Source: an uncultured Ruminococcus sp.
GTDB lineage: Bacteria > Bacillota > Clostridia > Oscillospirales > Ruminococcaceae
Assembly (NCBI GenBank): GCA_902788785.1
Contig: CADALT010000022.1
Coordinates: forward strand, 1-37,486
Direction: 5' to 3'
DNA length: 37,486 nucleotides
Part shown: positions 4,737 through 37,486 of the stretch, one piece after another
How the letters are laid out: the number at the start of each line of letters is the position of its first letter
Position numbering within the stretch: position 1 is the stretch's first letter
Notes under the pieces: generated by a model
What the model was told of the DNA's origin: nothing
Seen by the model: the letters and a program-made list of their open reading frames with translations, nothing else
The model's database searches: none
Program-made: the position numbers and the translations under genes

Positions 4737-6119
4737 TTACAGCTGGATATTGCTGTGTTTCTTTGGCAGTCTGGAAATCCTCTTTCCTGACATCATAGCC
4801 AGTGCATCAACTACAGCGTTTCTGAGCTGGGAAGCCTCAACGATACCGTCTACAAGACCATTTGCAGCAGCATTTACAGCGCTTGCCTCGTTCTTTGCAT
4901 ATTCAGCAGCCAGAGCATTTCTTGCAGCAGTCAGATCCTCTGCGCCTGCCAGCTTTTCATGCTCCATGAACTCAACAGCAGTAACAGGGTCAAGTGCGGA
5001 GATAACAGCCTCGGGCATAGCGTAAGCCACATCAGCGTTAGCGCCCTTGCCTGCCAGTGCTATGTAAGCCGAGCCGTAAGCCTTGCCTGTAACAACAGCA
5101 ACCTTAGCGGTAGTAGCCTCGGCATAAGCGTGAGCCAGCTTGCTCATGCTCTTTACAGCGCCTGCAGCCTCGGTCTCATCATTGCCTGCGAAACCTTCTG
5201 TATCAACGAAAGTCACAACAGGTACTGCGAATGCATCGCAGGTCCTTACGAACCTTGCCAGCTTAGCGCAGTCATCAGCGGTGAGCTTATCCTTGGTCTT
5301 ATTGGTAGCAGCCACGCCGACAGTCTCGCCGTTAACGGTAGCCAGTGCAGTATAAGCTGCACCGCCGAAGCCCTCGCTGAGCTCCAGCACGCTGCCGCCG
5401 TCGAATACAGCCTTGGTCAGGCTATCTATATCATTGCCGTTAGCGCCTGCAGGCTCTTCATACTCATATATCGGCACGGGTGAAAGGTTGTTCTGAGGGA
5501 GCTTGAGGAGTATTTCCTTAGCCTTTTCCACAGCAGCCTTATCATCAGCACAAACTGCGCAAACTGTGCCGTTTGCAGCAGCATTTTCAGCGGAACCATT
5601 GCTCTTTGCATTAGGTGCAGCGTAGAGAGATGCGCCCTCAGCCATAACGGTGAAGTCAGCAGCCTCTGCCAGCAGAGCAGCTGTACCCGAGCAAACCCCT
5701 GCAACTACAGCTATCTGAGGTACAACGCCCGAAAGGTTAGCGCTCCACAGCATCAGTTCGCCGTAAGCCCTGAGTGCAGCAGCACCATCGTTAACGTCAG
5801 CGCCGTAGGAATCATAGATACCTACCACGGGAACGCCTGTCTTTGCAGCCAGATCATAGATCTTAGCGATCTTGCGTGCGCCTGCCTCGGTCAGTGCGCC
5901 GCTCTTTACGGAAACATCCTGCGAGAATGCGTAAACAGGTTCGCCGTCGGCATAGCCGTAAGCGGTGATGACACCTGCTGTCTCGCAGCCATTGCCTGCG
6001 AATGCATCGAGCTCAGTAAATTTCCCTTCATCAAACAGATATGTCAGTCTTGTTCTCGCTGCACTTTCAGCACCGACGAGCGCTTTGAGTTCAGCCAGAG
6101 ACTTTTTTGTTTCAGACAT
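4737..6119 (-). CDS. Acyl-CoA carboxyltransferase (12S / MmdA / PccB-type)
   Basis: This 460-residue protein has the two-lobed crotonase-like fold of biotin-dependent acyl-CoA carboxyltransferases. The N lobe carries the SGVVPQIAVVAGVCSGTAALLAE-like core (near residues 130-152, quoted here only as family landmark), and the C lobe carries the FVDTEGFAGND and GKAYGSAY segments. The C-terminus KRISRLPKKHSNIQL is the typical end of the methylmalonyl-CoA/propionyl-CoA family (usual form: KKHGNIPL). It is about 50 residues shorter than usual, and is rich in Ala. It is the first gene of the operon, with GGAGG as ribosome binding site and a strong promoter at 6200-6228. With the carrier and the 5S-like subunit it could form a methylmalonyl-CoA:pyruvate transcarboxylase. 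The acyl-CoA used is not certain from sequence. Confidence 0.85.
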   Translation of the reverse strand: MSETKKSLAELKALVGAESAARTRLTYLFDEGKFTELDAFAGNGCETAGVITAYGYADGEPVYAFSQDVSVKSGALTEAGARKIAKIYDLAAKTGVPVVGIYDSYGADVNDGAAALRAYGELMLWSANLSGVVPQIAVVAGVCSGTAALLAEAADFTVMAEGASLYAAPNAKSNGSAENAAANGTVCAVCADDKAAVEKAKEILLKLPQNNLSPVPIYEYEEPAGANGNDIDSLTKAVFDGGSVLELSEGFGGAAYTALATVNGETVGVAATNKTKDKLTADDCAKLARFVRTCDAFAVPVVTFVDTEGFAGNDETEAAGAVKSMSKLAHAYAEATTAKVAVVTGKAYGSAYIALAGKGANADVAYAMPEAVISALDPVTAVEFMEHEKLAGAEDLTAARNALAAEYAKNEASAVNAAANGLVDGIVEASQLRNAVVDALAMMSGKRISRLPKKHSNIQL

Positions 6120-12823: not shown

Positions 12824-12966
12824 TAAAAAATCGATCCGACATATAGGCATGCAGGCGAAACTGTAACACACGAAACAGACCGCTTAATGCTGCTCGGTTC
12901 CCCGCCTGACATGGTTCACAGCGTTTCATTGTACAGGACCCGCACACCCATATCTCGGATCGATAA
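12824..12966 (-). ncRNA. ffs: Signal recognition particle RNA, small (4.5S-like) type
   Basis: Read on the minus strand, the conserved apical loop region is present: GAACCATGTCAGG, a GGGGAACC tetraloop region and AGCAGCATTAAG, the binding site for Ffh. The two ends are complementary (ATCGATCCGA at 12964-12955 with TCGGATCGAT at 12839-12830) and close one long helical rod, so there is no room for an Alu domain as in the 270-nt Bacillus form. A run of six T follows the closing stem and serves as terminator. Position next to dnaX is common in Firmicutes. Exact 5' and 3' ends are estimates. Confidence 0.93.
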
Positions 12967-34782: not shown

Positions 34783-35466
34783 ATGAGGATACTCATAATA
34801 GAAGATGATAAAAAACAATGCTTTCTCTTACAGTTTCGGCTGGAGAAAGAGGGCTTTTCGGCAGATATCTGCAATGACGGCGCAGATGCTGACCTGTACC
34901 TTTCGCAGAATGCCTATGATATGGTGCTGCTGGACAGGATGCTGCCCCACAAGGACGGTGTGACTATACTGCGTGATATGCGAAACAAGGGCGACCACAC
35001 ACCCGTAATAATGCTGACGGCGCTTGGCGAACTCTCAGACAAGATAACGGGACTCGACTGCGGTGCGGACGACTATATGGTAAAGCCCTATGAGGTGGAC
35101 GAACTGCTGGCACGTATGCGCTGCCTGATGCGCAGACCTTCACACATTGAGAACATAAACAGCGTGACCGTGGGAGATGTGACCTATTGCAGTGATGACA
35201 ACCTGCTTACGGGTCCAAAAGGTTCATGCACCCTCTCACAGAAAGAGGGCGAGCTTATGAACCTGTTTCTGCACAATCCCGAGCAGACTCTCCCCCGACA
35301 GACCATACAGGTGCGTGTATGGGGCATGGACGATGACACCCTTGACGGCAATCTGGACAACTACATATACTTTGTGCGCAGGAGGCTGAAAAACACAGGC
35401 AGCACGCTAAACATTGTAAATATTCGTGGGGTGGGCTACAAGCTTTCGGCAGGAGGTAAGGGCTGA
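34783..35466 (+). CDS. OmpR-family response regulator
   Basis: A 227-residue regulator. The receiver domain (residues 1-115) has acidic D8/D9, phospho-acceptor D51 in LLDRMLP, T79 and K101 in VKPYE. A winged-helix DNA-binding domain follows (about 125-227), ending with the TLNIVNIRGVGYKL wing typical of OmpR/PhoB. The frame runs back to 34750, but GGGAG 8 nt before ATG 34783 and the MRILIIEDD start of the family support the later start. The TGA overlaps the kinase ATG. Direct repeats at 34657-34699 are its likely target, giving control of the divergent transport operon. Confidence 0.93.
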   Translation: MRILIIEDDKKQCFLLQFRLEKEGFSADICNDGADADLYLSQNAYDMVLLDRMLPHKDGVTILRDMRNKGDHTPVIMLTALGELSDKITGLDCGADDYMVKPYEVDELLARMRCLMRRPSHIENINSVTVGDVTYCSDDNLLTGPKGSCTLSQKEGELMNLFLHNPEQTLPRQTIQVRVWGMDDDTLDGNLDNYIYFVRRRLKNTGSTLNIVNIRGVGYKLSAGGKG

Positions 35467-36716
35467 TGTTCCGCAAAGTGCATATGCGCCTGACACTGCT
35501 GTTCACGCTGTTTGCGGCTTTGATACTCGTCGTCATGTCGGGGCTGTACCTATACATCAACTACCGCAGTCTGGATAAGAATTCCGCCGCAAGCTTCCGC
35601 AATGATGTATACGCATTCGAGAACAGTTTTGACGGAAACGTGGTAGATCTCAACAGTATAAAAATCATACGCAAAAACTACGACCACCTTGTTTTCATCT
35701 ACGACAGCGGCAGTCCGATACACATGACTAAAATGACCACGAGCGAAAGTCAGCTGGCATTGGCAGAAAGAGTGCGCAAACATTACACCGAGAACGTAAA
35801 GCCCCTGAACAAAGAGCGCATACCCGTGTTTGACTACCGTGACAGCGGCAAAGATCATTATGTGGGAGTATACGAACTTGACCGAGATGTGCAGGTATAC
35901 ATCATCTGCGACCTATCCCTAATAGCAGAACAGAAGCGGCGTTTGCTCATACGTTTTCTGCTGATAGACGGTGCGGCGCTGATAATATTCTACCTGTTCT
36001 CATACTTTTTCACAGGCAGGCTGCTGCGCCCCATAGATGAAGCGGCAAAGCGGCAAAACGAGTTCATAGCGGCAGCATCACATGAGATACGCAACCCTGT
36101 GAACACCATGATGACGGCACTTTCTGCCATGGAGAAAGCGGAGCCCTCGCAGCAGGGCGAGCTTATCTCGATAGCGCAAAAAGAGGGCAGACGGCTTGCA
36201 AGGCTCACGGGCGACCTGCTGACCTTAGCTAGGGGTGATGCAGGCAGTTTCAAGGCAGAGTTCGGCGATGCGGAGCTTGACACTATCATCCTCGACTGCT
36301 ACGAAGCATTCAGTTTACGTGCAGCAGAAAAAGACATCGACCTAAAAGTAGAATTGCCCGAGGAGAGTGTGACCGTTAGGGCAGATGCTAGCCGTATTAG
36401 TCAGGCAATATGCATACTGCTTGACAACGCCATAAGCTACACACCAAAGGGTGGTCGAGTAGGGCTGTCCCTTGAAAAAGGCGCAAAGAACACCACTATA
36501 AAAGTCACAGACAATGGCGAGGGGATACCTGACGAGTACAAGGAGAAGATATTCGAGCGATTTTATCGAGCGGACGATGCACGGACGGACGAAAATCATT
36601 TTGGATTAGGATTATGCATAGCAAAGGAGCTCATTACACTACATGGAGGAACAATAGAAGTGAGTGATACAGAGGGCGGCGGAAGCACATTCATAATAAG
36701 GCTTGGAAATTCATAA
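35466..36716 (+). CDS. Sensor histidine kinase, HisKA type
   Basis: A 416-residue membrane kinase. Membrane helices lie at residues 8-32 and about 161-183, bounding an extracellular sensor of about 125 residues of no recognised family. Then come a short linker and the HisKA domain with H206 in ASHEIRNPVN, followed by the N box LLDNAISYT, G1 DNGEGIP, F box ERFYRAD and G2 GLGLCIAKEL, all intact. The ATG overlaps the response regulator's stop. It should phosphorylate the regulator in response to an outside signal, perhaps reported by the divergent lipoprotein and HlyD-type adaptor. Confidence 0.92.
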   Translation: MFRKVHMRLTLLFTLFAALILVVMSGLYLYINYRSLDKNSAASFRNDVYAFENSFDGNVVDLNSIKIIRKNYDHLVFIYDSGSPIHMTKMTTSESQLALAERVRKHYTENVKPLNKERIPVFDYRDSGKDHYVGVYELDRDVQVYIICDLSLIAEQKRRLLIRFLLIDGAALIIFYLFSYFFTGRLLRPIDEAAKRQNEFIAAASHEIRNPVNTMMTALSAMEKAEPSQQGELISIAQKEGRRLARLTGDLLTLARGDAGSFKAEFGDAELDTIILDCYEAFSLRAAEKDIDLKVELPEESVTVRADASRISQAICILLDNAISYTPKGGRVGLSLEKGAKNTTIKVTDNGEGIPDEYKEKIFERFYRADDARTDENHFGLGLCIAKELITLHGGTIEVSDTEGGGSTFIIRLGNS

Positions 36717-36794
36717 TTATGGCAGAGCGAAAACGTAGCCGCAAAGATAAAAACGTTCCGAGCGCAAAAACGGGCACAAAAGCGAAAAGCGGTG

Positions 36795-37045
36795 ACGAGG
36801 CAAGCTTTGGCTCAAGCCTTTCACGAAAGGCTTGCGGAGTTTGAGGCAGAGCCTCAACTCAAGGCACAAAAAGAGTGTTCCCCACAAAACAGGGAGAGCA
36901 AAGCAAATAATACGGGCGGCGATGGAGCAAAAATCCTGAACGTCTGCCTAATTACCCGTACAGACAAAAAGGCGTGCGAGGACATCGCCGCCCGATGGTT
37001 TTAAACAGCGCAGCGCTTTTAAAACCATTCGCAGCGTTAGCTGCG
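36795..37045 (+). repeat. Structured repeat element, copy 1
   Basis: About 250 nt after the kinase gene (36717-36794 holds nothing recognisable). Hairpins in order: H1 CAAGCCTTT/AAAGGCTTG (36813-36834), H2 TTGAGGC/GCCTCAA (36841-36857), H3 CGGGCGGCGATG (36913-36924) pairing with CATCGCCGCCCG (36983-36994) around 58 nt, H4 ATGGTTTTAAA/TTTAAAACCAT (36995-37028) with a 12-nt loop, and H5 CGCAGC/GCTGCG (37030-37045). Copy 2 runs in the opposite direction at the window end, and has the same order with changed stems. An ORF across it (36792-37004) is probably spurious. Confidence 0.8.
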
Positions 37046-37092
37046 ACCACTTTCCTCTATCTCCATCTATAAATTTAGAACAACAAAAATAA

Positions 37093-37130
37093 CGACCCCC
37101 ACAGGATAACGCAACTCCTGTGGGGGTTAT
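37093..37130 (+). terminator. Strong, probably bidirectional terminator
   Basis: ACCCCCACAGGA (37095-37106) / TCCTGTGGGGGT (37116-37127), a 12-bp perfect stem with a 9-nt loop, with TTATTT after and AAAAATAA before it. It lies between the two convergent element copies and could stop transcription from either side. Confidence 0.75.
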
Positions 37131-37230
37131 TTGTCATATTGTCCGTTGTACCTAATTTTGCCAGGCATACCAGAGCGATTTTTTTGTTTGGCTTATGGAC
37201 GGTTTTGCTTGGGTGGTGAGGTCGCTGTCG

Positions 37231-37486
37231 TCGCCCCTTACGGGTCGAAGAGGTCAAAAGCACTTCGTTGTTTGACCTCTGACGGGCGGCGATGTCCTCG
37301 CACGATATTTTGTGTGGGTGGGTACGTGGGCAGACGTTCAAGAAGTTTGCTCCATCGCCGCCCGTGTTATTTTGTTTTGCTCTCCCTGTTTTGTGGAGAA
37401 CGCTCTTTTTGTGCCTTGATGTGAGGGCTCTGCCCTCACACTCCCGCAAGCCTTTCGTGAAAGGCTTGACCTAAAGCTTGCCTCGT
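37231..37486 (-). repeat. Structured repeat element, copy 2 (inverted)
   Basis: Read from 37486 downward it begins ACGAGGCAAGCTTT, as copy 1 does at 36795, and is roughly 80-85% identical by eye over 200 nt. Its hairpins are H1 (37447-37468), H2 TGTGAGGGC/GCCCTCACA (37420-37440), H3 with the same 12-bp stem (37353-37364 with 37283-37294), H4 AGAGGTCAAA/TTTGACCTCT (37249-37280), and H5 (37231-37248, one mismatch). It touches the window edge and may continue beyond it. Confidence 0.78.

Follow-up and report, generated by a model that had tools for sequence, protein, structure and literature searches.

The window analysed here, a stretch of 37,486 nucleotides from an uncultured Ruminococcus, ends in an array of hairpins whose stems differ between copies while staying paired, and this raises the question of whether the array acts as RNA, moves as DNA or owes its structure to mutation. 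The initial annotation had described two convergent copies with five hairpins each at 36795–37486 and had seen, in H2 and H4 stems altered on both strands next to an identical H3 stem, a sign of selection on RNA or single-stranded DNA structure. The five hairpins are indeed present in both copies and in opposed orientation, the sequence bears out the two-sided differences in H2 and H4 as well as the identity of H3, and the copies are 87% alike over about 200 nt in inverted alignment. The arms extend over about 36795–37060 and 37229–37486 and consist, from outside inward, of H1, H2, a purine-rich linker, M4 (the H3 of the initial annotation, a stem with a long loop), H4 and H5 (Table 1). Their proposed start at 36795 had to be moved, because flanks common to other copies extend outward beyond it; alignment with these copies places the real left end near 36718, directly behind a histidine kinase gene whose stop codon lies at 36716. 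The supposed equivalence of the two copies also failed for the inner part, as H4, H5 and the centre form an asymmetric arrangement in complete host units compared by eye, with H4 and H5 types differing between the two sides of a fixed centre. Open reading frames within the window copy reach at most 124 aa and, as had been stated, no transposase was seen in this structured intergenic repeat.

Table 1. Coordinates of the element at the end of the window, its parts and its upstream neighbour.
Feature	Position	Strand	Remarks
Histidine kinase gene (HisKA + HATPase_c)	35466–36716	+	Upstream neighbour, outside the element
Interspersed hairpin-mosaic element	36718–37486	.	Long copies elsewhere in the genome; right end cut by contig end
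Left-arm outer segment, TATGGCAGAGCGAAAACGTAGCC... then GTTCCGAGCGC...	36718–36794	+	By eye, G012 and other host copies have similar segments
H1, left arm	36812–36834	+	
H2, left arm	36841–36857	+	Loop AGA
H3/M4, left arm	36913–36994	+	12-bp stem, 36913–36924 with 36983–36994; loop of 58 nt
H4, left arm	36995–37028	+	
H5, left arm	37029–37046	+	
Element centre	37047–37230	.	Contains a strong GC-rich hairpin, 37095–37127, in the host
H5, right arm	37231–37248	-	
H4, right arm	37249–37280	-	
H3/M4, right arm	37283–37364	-	Strands 37283–37294 with 37353–37364
H2, right arm	37420–37440	-	
H1, right arm	37447–37469	-	

Both arms folded far better than shuffled sequence (z of -6.8 and -5.6, with 60 shuffles per arm). 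Pairing of arm against arm into one long hairpin gave -458 kcal/mol against -280 kcal/mol for local folding (span of at most 150) with RNA parameters, and -271 against -149 kcal/mol with DNA parameters, so that the long hairpin is thermodynamically better and either fold may form. The long hairpin around a terminator that had been suggested is thus energetically favoured, but its terminator is not conserved across species. In host centres a GC-rich hairpin is followed by T-rich sequence, and the one in the window may end transcription. A ACCCCCACAGGA-type central hairpin occurred in the host centres inspected; by contrast, it was absent from the inspected centres of four other genomes, where at most a different hairpin (L089) was found. 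Because the hairpin is not kept between species, a central terminator as a conserved function was rejected.

The element belongs to a repeat family of the host genome (G000, about 91% complete), in which blast gave 38 matches. Long host units matched at 81–84% identity across 658–692 nt of the query, which indicates that the unit is the pair of arms; several further host contigs terminate within an element copy, as expected where a repeat breaks assemblies. The arms are mosaics, with a few alternative hairpins at each position recurring in varied combinations. By eye, three types of H1, four of H2, two of M4 and about four of H4 were distinguished in the host, and H4 took 28 non-empty stem combinations among 122 aligned arms, two of which were empty at H4. 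Covariation between the two copies of the window may therefore partly reflect the swapping of ready-made hairpin modules among about 30 host copies, and mutation by palindrome copying can imitate it. In some hairpins the stem or loop is interrupted by a second, inserted hairpin. An AT-rich hairpin is inserted in H1 of two host arms (L041:6615–6700 and L042:6616–6701), different arm hairpins contain an inserted mini-hairpin whose GACGCAGTC core is flanked by variable stems (at about L107:3681, L122:4163, L088:4238, L108:3751, L125:4297 and other sites), and a AGTCAGCAAAGCTGACT mini-hairpin lies within H2 of L113 and L121. A TGTTCCACGTGGAACA palindrome, which we take to resemble parS, is found inside some elements of genome G027 (L108:4046, L113:4314 and L122:4338). 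Exact-pattern copies of it number 24 in G027, 31 in G012, 7 in G022 (four of them near 15–16 kb of the chromosome) and one in the host. Locus L128 of G012 carries ten parS-like palindromes at 883–2306, spaced mostly by about 47 nt and lying 1.6–3.1 kb from an arm.

Distribution among relatives was followed with two covariance models. R1, which describes the M4-H4-H5 core and was made from 26 sequences, matched in 12 of 29 genus genomes, host included, and the matching genomes held at least 93, 85, 84, 52, 31, 17, 15, 14, 11, 6, 1 and 1 arms, no more than 117 candidates having been scored in each genome. Under stricter filters it matched two of 148 family genomes, the host and G179 of another genus; in three loci of G179 inspected by eye the hairpin order is kept and the M4 stem resembles that of the host, while H1, H2, H4 and H5 differ. 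R2 describes the outer H1-H2 pair; some of its 23 sequences come from farther afield, for instance from G094 or from a human-faecal phage contig that lacks annotation. A further alignment (A3) used 23 of 37 segments. Within the order, R2 had matches in 38 of 295 genomes and in 27 of 149 genera, with the host and G094 counted in. When 14 H1-H2 loci of other genera were folded, different hairpins came after H1-H2. These loci (L196–L209) open with H1-H2 and go on as other arrays that have different inner hairpins and recurring loops, and L196, L198 and L199 each contain two convergent H1-H2 copies. Plasmid and phage collections gave one and three records, respectively, which matched the H1-H2 part weakly over about 50 nt. 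Searches with an exact pattern returned no match among viral contigs and none among genome contigs, the pattern used for the latter probably being too specific. A literature search from which most subscription journals were absent found no description of the element, which is weak evidence of novelty.

Orthologous sites were compared between G027 and the genomes G005, G012 and G022. Nine usable G027 sites (a tenth, L123, was left out because its right flank is missing from the query) gave 24 site-by-genome cases with both flanks, and by hand tally the flanks were adjacent in 15 of them, once with a 2.9-kb gap, and not adjacent in nine. Six of the 24 cases, all of them with adjacent flanks, are element-free, namely L114 in G005 and G012, L108 and L113 in G012, and L121 in G012 and G022; L113 in G022 retains a remnant. 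The best empty site is that of L114, which is without an element in both G012 and G005, the flanks in G005 being 99% and 87% identical. Its copy is a single arm with junctions that are not clean, and insertion would be the simpler reading there. In addition, L126 of G012 has an arm where L100 of G005 has about 35 nt. Between L097 (G005) and L120 (G027) the flanks are 92–94% identical and the alignable element parts 74% and 85%, indicating that the element can diverge more than its flanks at orthologous loci. L093 of G005 was rejected as an empty site, since it retains no more than fused ends where L104 of G027 has the element and hence represents a deletion; loss therefore occurs too. No clean target-site duplication was found at empty-site junctions, nor were convincing flanking repeats found in eight intervals whose borders are inexact and some of whose units are incomplete. 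As a control, ten element-free gaps gave 21 cases, 19 with adjacent flanks (one with a 3.1-kb gap) and two without; the L114 gap in G005 was omitted because its left flank gave weak, double hits only. The difference in non-adjacent flanks (9 of 24 against 2 of 21) is no more than suggestive of rearrangement, being small and made of non-independent cases in which one break can be counted in several genomes.

We then asked what kind of molecule the stems are kept for. Alignment A1 contains 26 arms of five genomes (G000, G022, G005, G027 and G012) aligned with MAFFT and picked from 40 core segments recognised by patterns in 54 arms; the choice favours intact stems and excludes segments with inserts and many near-duplicates. 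Of its cells, 98.4% were paired, double changes occurred at 15 of 26 pairs, and 115 changed cells were double against one single. On four of five measures all 500 shuffles stayed below the observed value, and on the fifth, further pair types, the observed 23 was lower than the 27.5 of the shuffles; slid controls paired in 32–50% of cells. The larger alignment A2, with 122 arms fitted to the model and hence leaning toward pairing, was 98.2% paired and contained 473 double-changed cells. All these counts refer to cells (sequences) rather than events, so inherited or exchanged modules inflate the double changes. The H2 and H4 pairing on which the initial annotation rested is kept in other copies and species. 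A search of the whole window with Rfam returned SRP RNA as the sole family above threshold, and no family reached its gathering threshold in the element, the best being Yfr1, whose 22.1 bits fall short of the cut-off, 38. Neither a loss of H2/H4 pairing in homologues nor an Rfam entry, both named beforehand as refuting the initial annotation, was thus found.

The small SRP RNA gene of the window (12846–12945, minus strand, 64.7 bits) was the starting point of a single control RNA, represented within the genus by 29 sequences, 19 of them distinct, from 31 places; one place of 25–65 positions was omitted in each of G017 and G018. In the SRP RNA 132 of 641 cells (20.6%) were G.U, in contrast to 1 of 674 (A1) and 25 of 3055 (A2) in the core, or 0.15–0.82%. 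The ratio of one-sided to two-sided changes was 31:10 in SRP RNA against 1:115 in A1 and 22:473 in A2, and G.U was preferred to other mismatches in SRP RNA (132 against 10) but not in A2 (25 against 56). The outer H1-H2 set (139 rows, 106 distinct) had 22 G.U and 16 other mismatches in 1424 cells, with 21 one-sided and 316 two-sided changes; G.U is rare there, yet mismatches are no commoner. In local hairpins that were predicted independently of any alignment, G.U made up 6.4% of pairs in host arms against 14.7% in shuffles, 3.9% in arms of other Ruminococcus genomes (shuffles 14.6%) and 4.0% in other arrays (shuffles 18.4%); gene windows gave 17.1% against 20.6%. With G.U and one-sided changes nearly absent, the pattern fits an ordinary RNA less well than a fold under constraint at the DNA level or mutation by palindrome copying. 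The structured repeat and its covariation in other copies and species stand, but selection on RNA is not supported as an option equal to single-stranded DNA.

These counts bear directly on the reading that the arms are a structured non-coding RNA or 3' UTR element, in which genes ending at the arms would carry the hairpin array with a terminator at the centre. For the gene context, genes were predicted by means of a simple codon model made for this analysis, and 119 of the 122 core matches were used, the three weakest, each beside a same-strand match, being dropped. None of the 119 cores overlapped a gene called in this way. They faced a gene 3' end in 69 cases, a 5' end in 45 and no called gene in five, with a stop codon at most 310 nt from the core in 62 of the 69 and a start equally near in 13 of the 45; gaps with the element were convergent, codirectional or divergent in 15, 48 and 12 cases (n=75), compared with 20, 170 and 36 in the background (n=226). 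The facing of 3' ends, the excess of convergent gaps and the terminator-like host centres are what such an element would lead one to expect. However, in G012 the preference is reversed, with 23 arms facing 5' ends and nine facing 3' ends, so that the bias toward 3' ends is mild and species-dependent and a fixed 3' UTR element is weakened. Since the tolerance of G.U and the one-sided steps of a functional RNA were not found in the core, the central hairpin is missing from the inspected centres of four other genomes and Rfam gave no match, we regard this RNA reading as quite unlikely. At L035, a PemK/MazF-like toxin gene (Pfam) at 5559–5924 ends next to an arm; of three proteins beside arms at this locus two match Pfam, this toxin and a DNA-binding/CoA-binding protein that we presume to be Rex-like.

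Stems kept by mutation alone are harder to set aside. Template switching at quasipalindromes, a process described in print (PMC8794818, PMC7202029), could repeatedly rewrite a stem, one strand from its partner, while recombination among copies spreads the result, leaving a fold that has no function. Fold-back copying predicts perfect, block-wise replacement of stems and near-absent G.U; the core G.U cells (25 of 81 non-Watson-Crick cells) are no commoner than point mutation might give, by our own estimate of about one third, and nested palindromes do lie inside the hairpins. The loops argue otherwise. H2 loops read AGA in 97, AAA in 22 and TCT in none of 139 rows, H4 loops are mostly CAGCG(N)AGCG, and CAGAG was found in the sense orientation in 47 of 54 arms, inverted in none and otherwise in seven. 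Interstrand template switching would sometimes invert loops (PMC8794818), although fold-back copying of a single strand need not. Conserved, oriented loops hence argue for recognition while being compatible with palindrome copying too. Moreover, the M4 stem, despite enclosing some 60 nt of loop, was still 97.4% paired, with double changes at eight of nine pairs in an alignment fitted to the model, and the hairpin order is kept in three loci of another genus. Considering both sides, structure arising without selection appears unlikely. A host-maintained chromosome site, amplified for a role in the nucleoid, segregation or recombination, would account for the high intergenic copy number, the perfect palindromes and the parS-like palindrome in some copies, and a host-maintained chromosomal role has been proposed for BIMEs. 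By contrast, within a single genus the arm matches per genome range from none to 93 or more, orthologous sites are not all conserved, and parS-like palindromes lay at most 300 nt from an arm core in only three of 13 cases in the loci scanned. Elements as carriers of parS are thus true for a few copies only, and this last reading seems very improbable.

Arm arrangement and known mobile systems bear on the favoured reading as mobile DNA. Close arm pairs among the 119 arms were convergent (plus, then minus) in 36 of 36 cases, and 47 arms were single; with all 122 matches, 36 of 39 neighbours were convergent and three were on the same strand (L032, L033 and L113). The sole clear tandem among the matches, at L113:3981–4288, consists of two adjacent cores on one strand, of which the second scores a weak 28 bits. 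No transposase was noticed by eye in the open reading frame list of one 1.8-kb interval between same-strand arms (L072). The Y1 transposase domain PF01797 had no match in the host assembly (about 91% complete) or in G017, which holds at least 52 arms (G027 lay outside this search); it was found in 23 of 41 genomes searched, and its presence does not track the number of elements. Directly before the H1 foot, tested as the only hairpin, GTAG, GTGG or CGTC occurred in none of 54 arms. Over whole arms, with about 56 expected for each, GTAG occurred six times, GTGG 35 times (below expectation) and CGTC, a known REP tag, 77 times (above). Given that PF01797 had no match in the host and G017 and that H1 lacks REP foot tags, the host's elements are probably not mobilised at present by a Y1/RAYT transposase.

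The element resembles REPINs and BIMEs, inverted pairs of REP hairpins linked to RAYT transposases, in using two inverted structured ends as its unit, in its intergenic position and many copies, in lone halves that are likely remnants and in compensatory changes (PMC3116915 for the REPIN features; PMC3116915 and PMC6006769 for the comparison). Unlike them, it is several times larger, has five ordered hairpins per arm and, as far as tested, shows neither a tag at the H1 foot nor a RAYT/Y1 transposase in the host. With MITEs it shares an apparently non-coding and non-autonomous nature, dispersal and inverted ends, the arms serving as terminal inverted repeats, but where MITEs have plain terminal repeats it has an array of several hairpins, and a target-site duplication and a parent IS, both weakly tested, were not seen. 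The RIME/ABC elements of rhizobia are likewise intergenic mosaics of several palindromes; they belong to another phylum and are much smaller. A single Mesorhizobium blast hit, inside an annotated U32 peptidase gene, is probably due to chance and was rejected. Double-hairpin elements and palindromic repeats of algal and fungal mitochondria, likened here by description, are mobile hairpins with palindromes inside palindromes, in organelles as opposed to a bacterial host. The main text of a survey of tagged palindromic repeats contains none of Ruminococc-, Faecalibacterium, Clostrid- or Firmicutes (PMC3733652). In organisation the element is closest to REPINs/BIMEs and MITEs, and we class it as an interspersed mosaic repeat, not as a REPIN.

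With its dispersal, convergent pairing, mosaicism, Watson-Crick covariation, loop conservation and presence or absence at orthologous sites, the element is probably a non-autonomous, interspersed mobile DNA repeat of about 0.7–0.8 kb when complete, like a giant REPIN or BIME, for which the mobilising factor would be supplied elsewhere. The mobile unit would be two inverted arms, each an ordered hairpin array, flanking an asymmetric centre, and it may have spread through a trans factor encoded elsewhere or now lost. Such a factor would recognise the hairpins on single-stranded or extruded DNA through loop and shape; recombination between copies would then yield mosaics, lone arms and some of the rearrangements, and palindrome copying in the course of replication may contribute to the perfection of the stems. 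On a wider and only tentative view, the arms could be the Ruminococcus form of an order-wide hairpin-array mobile DNA, recognised as single-stranded DNA by loops and hairpin order with stems nearly free to vary, moved by machinery other than Y1/RAYT and offering landing sites to further palindromes such as the nested hairpins and parS-like sites. A functional RNA is usually proved by covariation, and a strongly covarying family with few G.U pairs that points to DNA calls for caution in RNA discovery. The family is also a good system in which to separate structural selection from template-switch mutation. The repeats also enlarge Ruminococcus genomes by dozens of copies, each up to about 0.8 kb long, and probably break the assemblies of these genomes.
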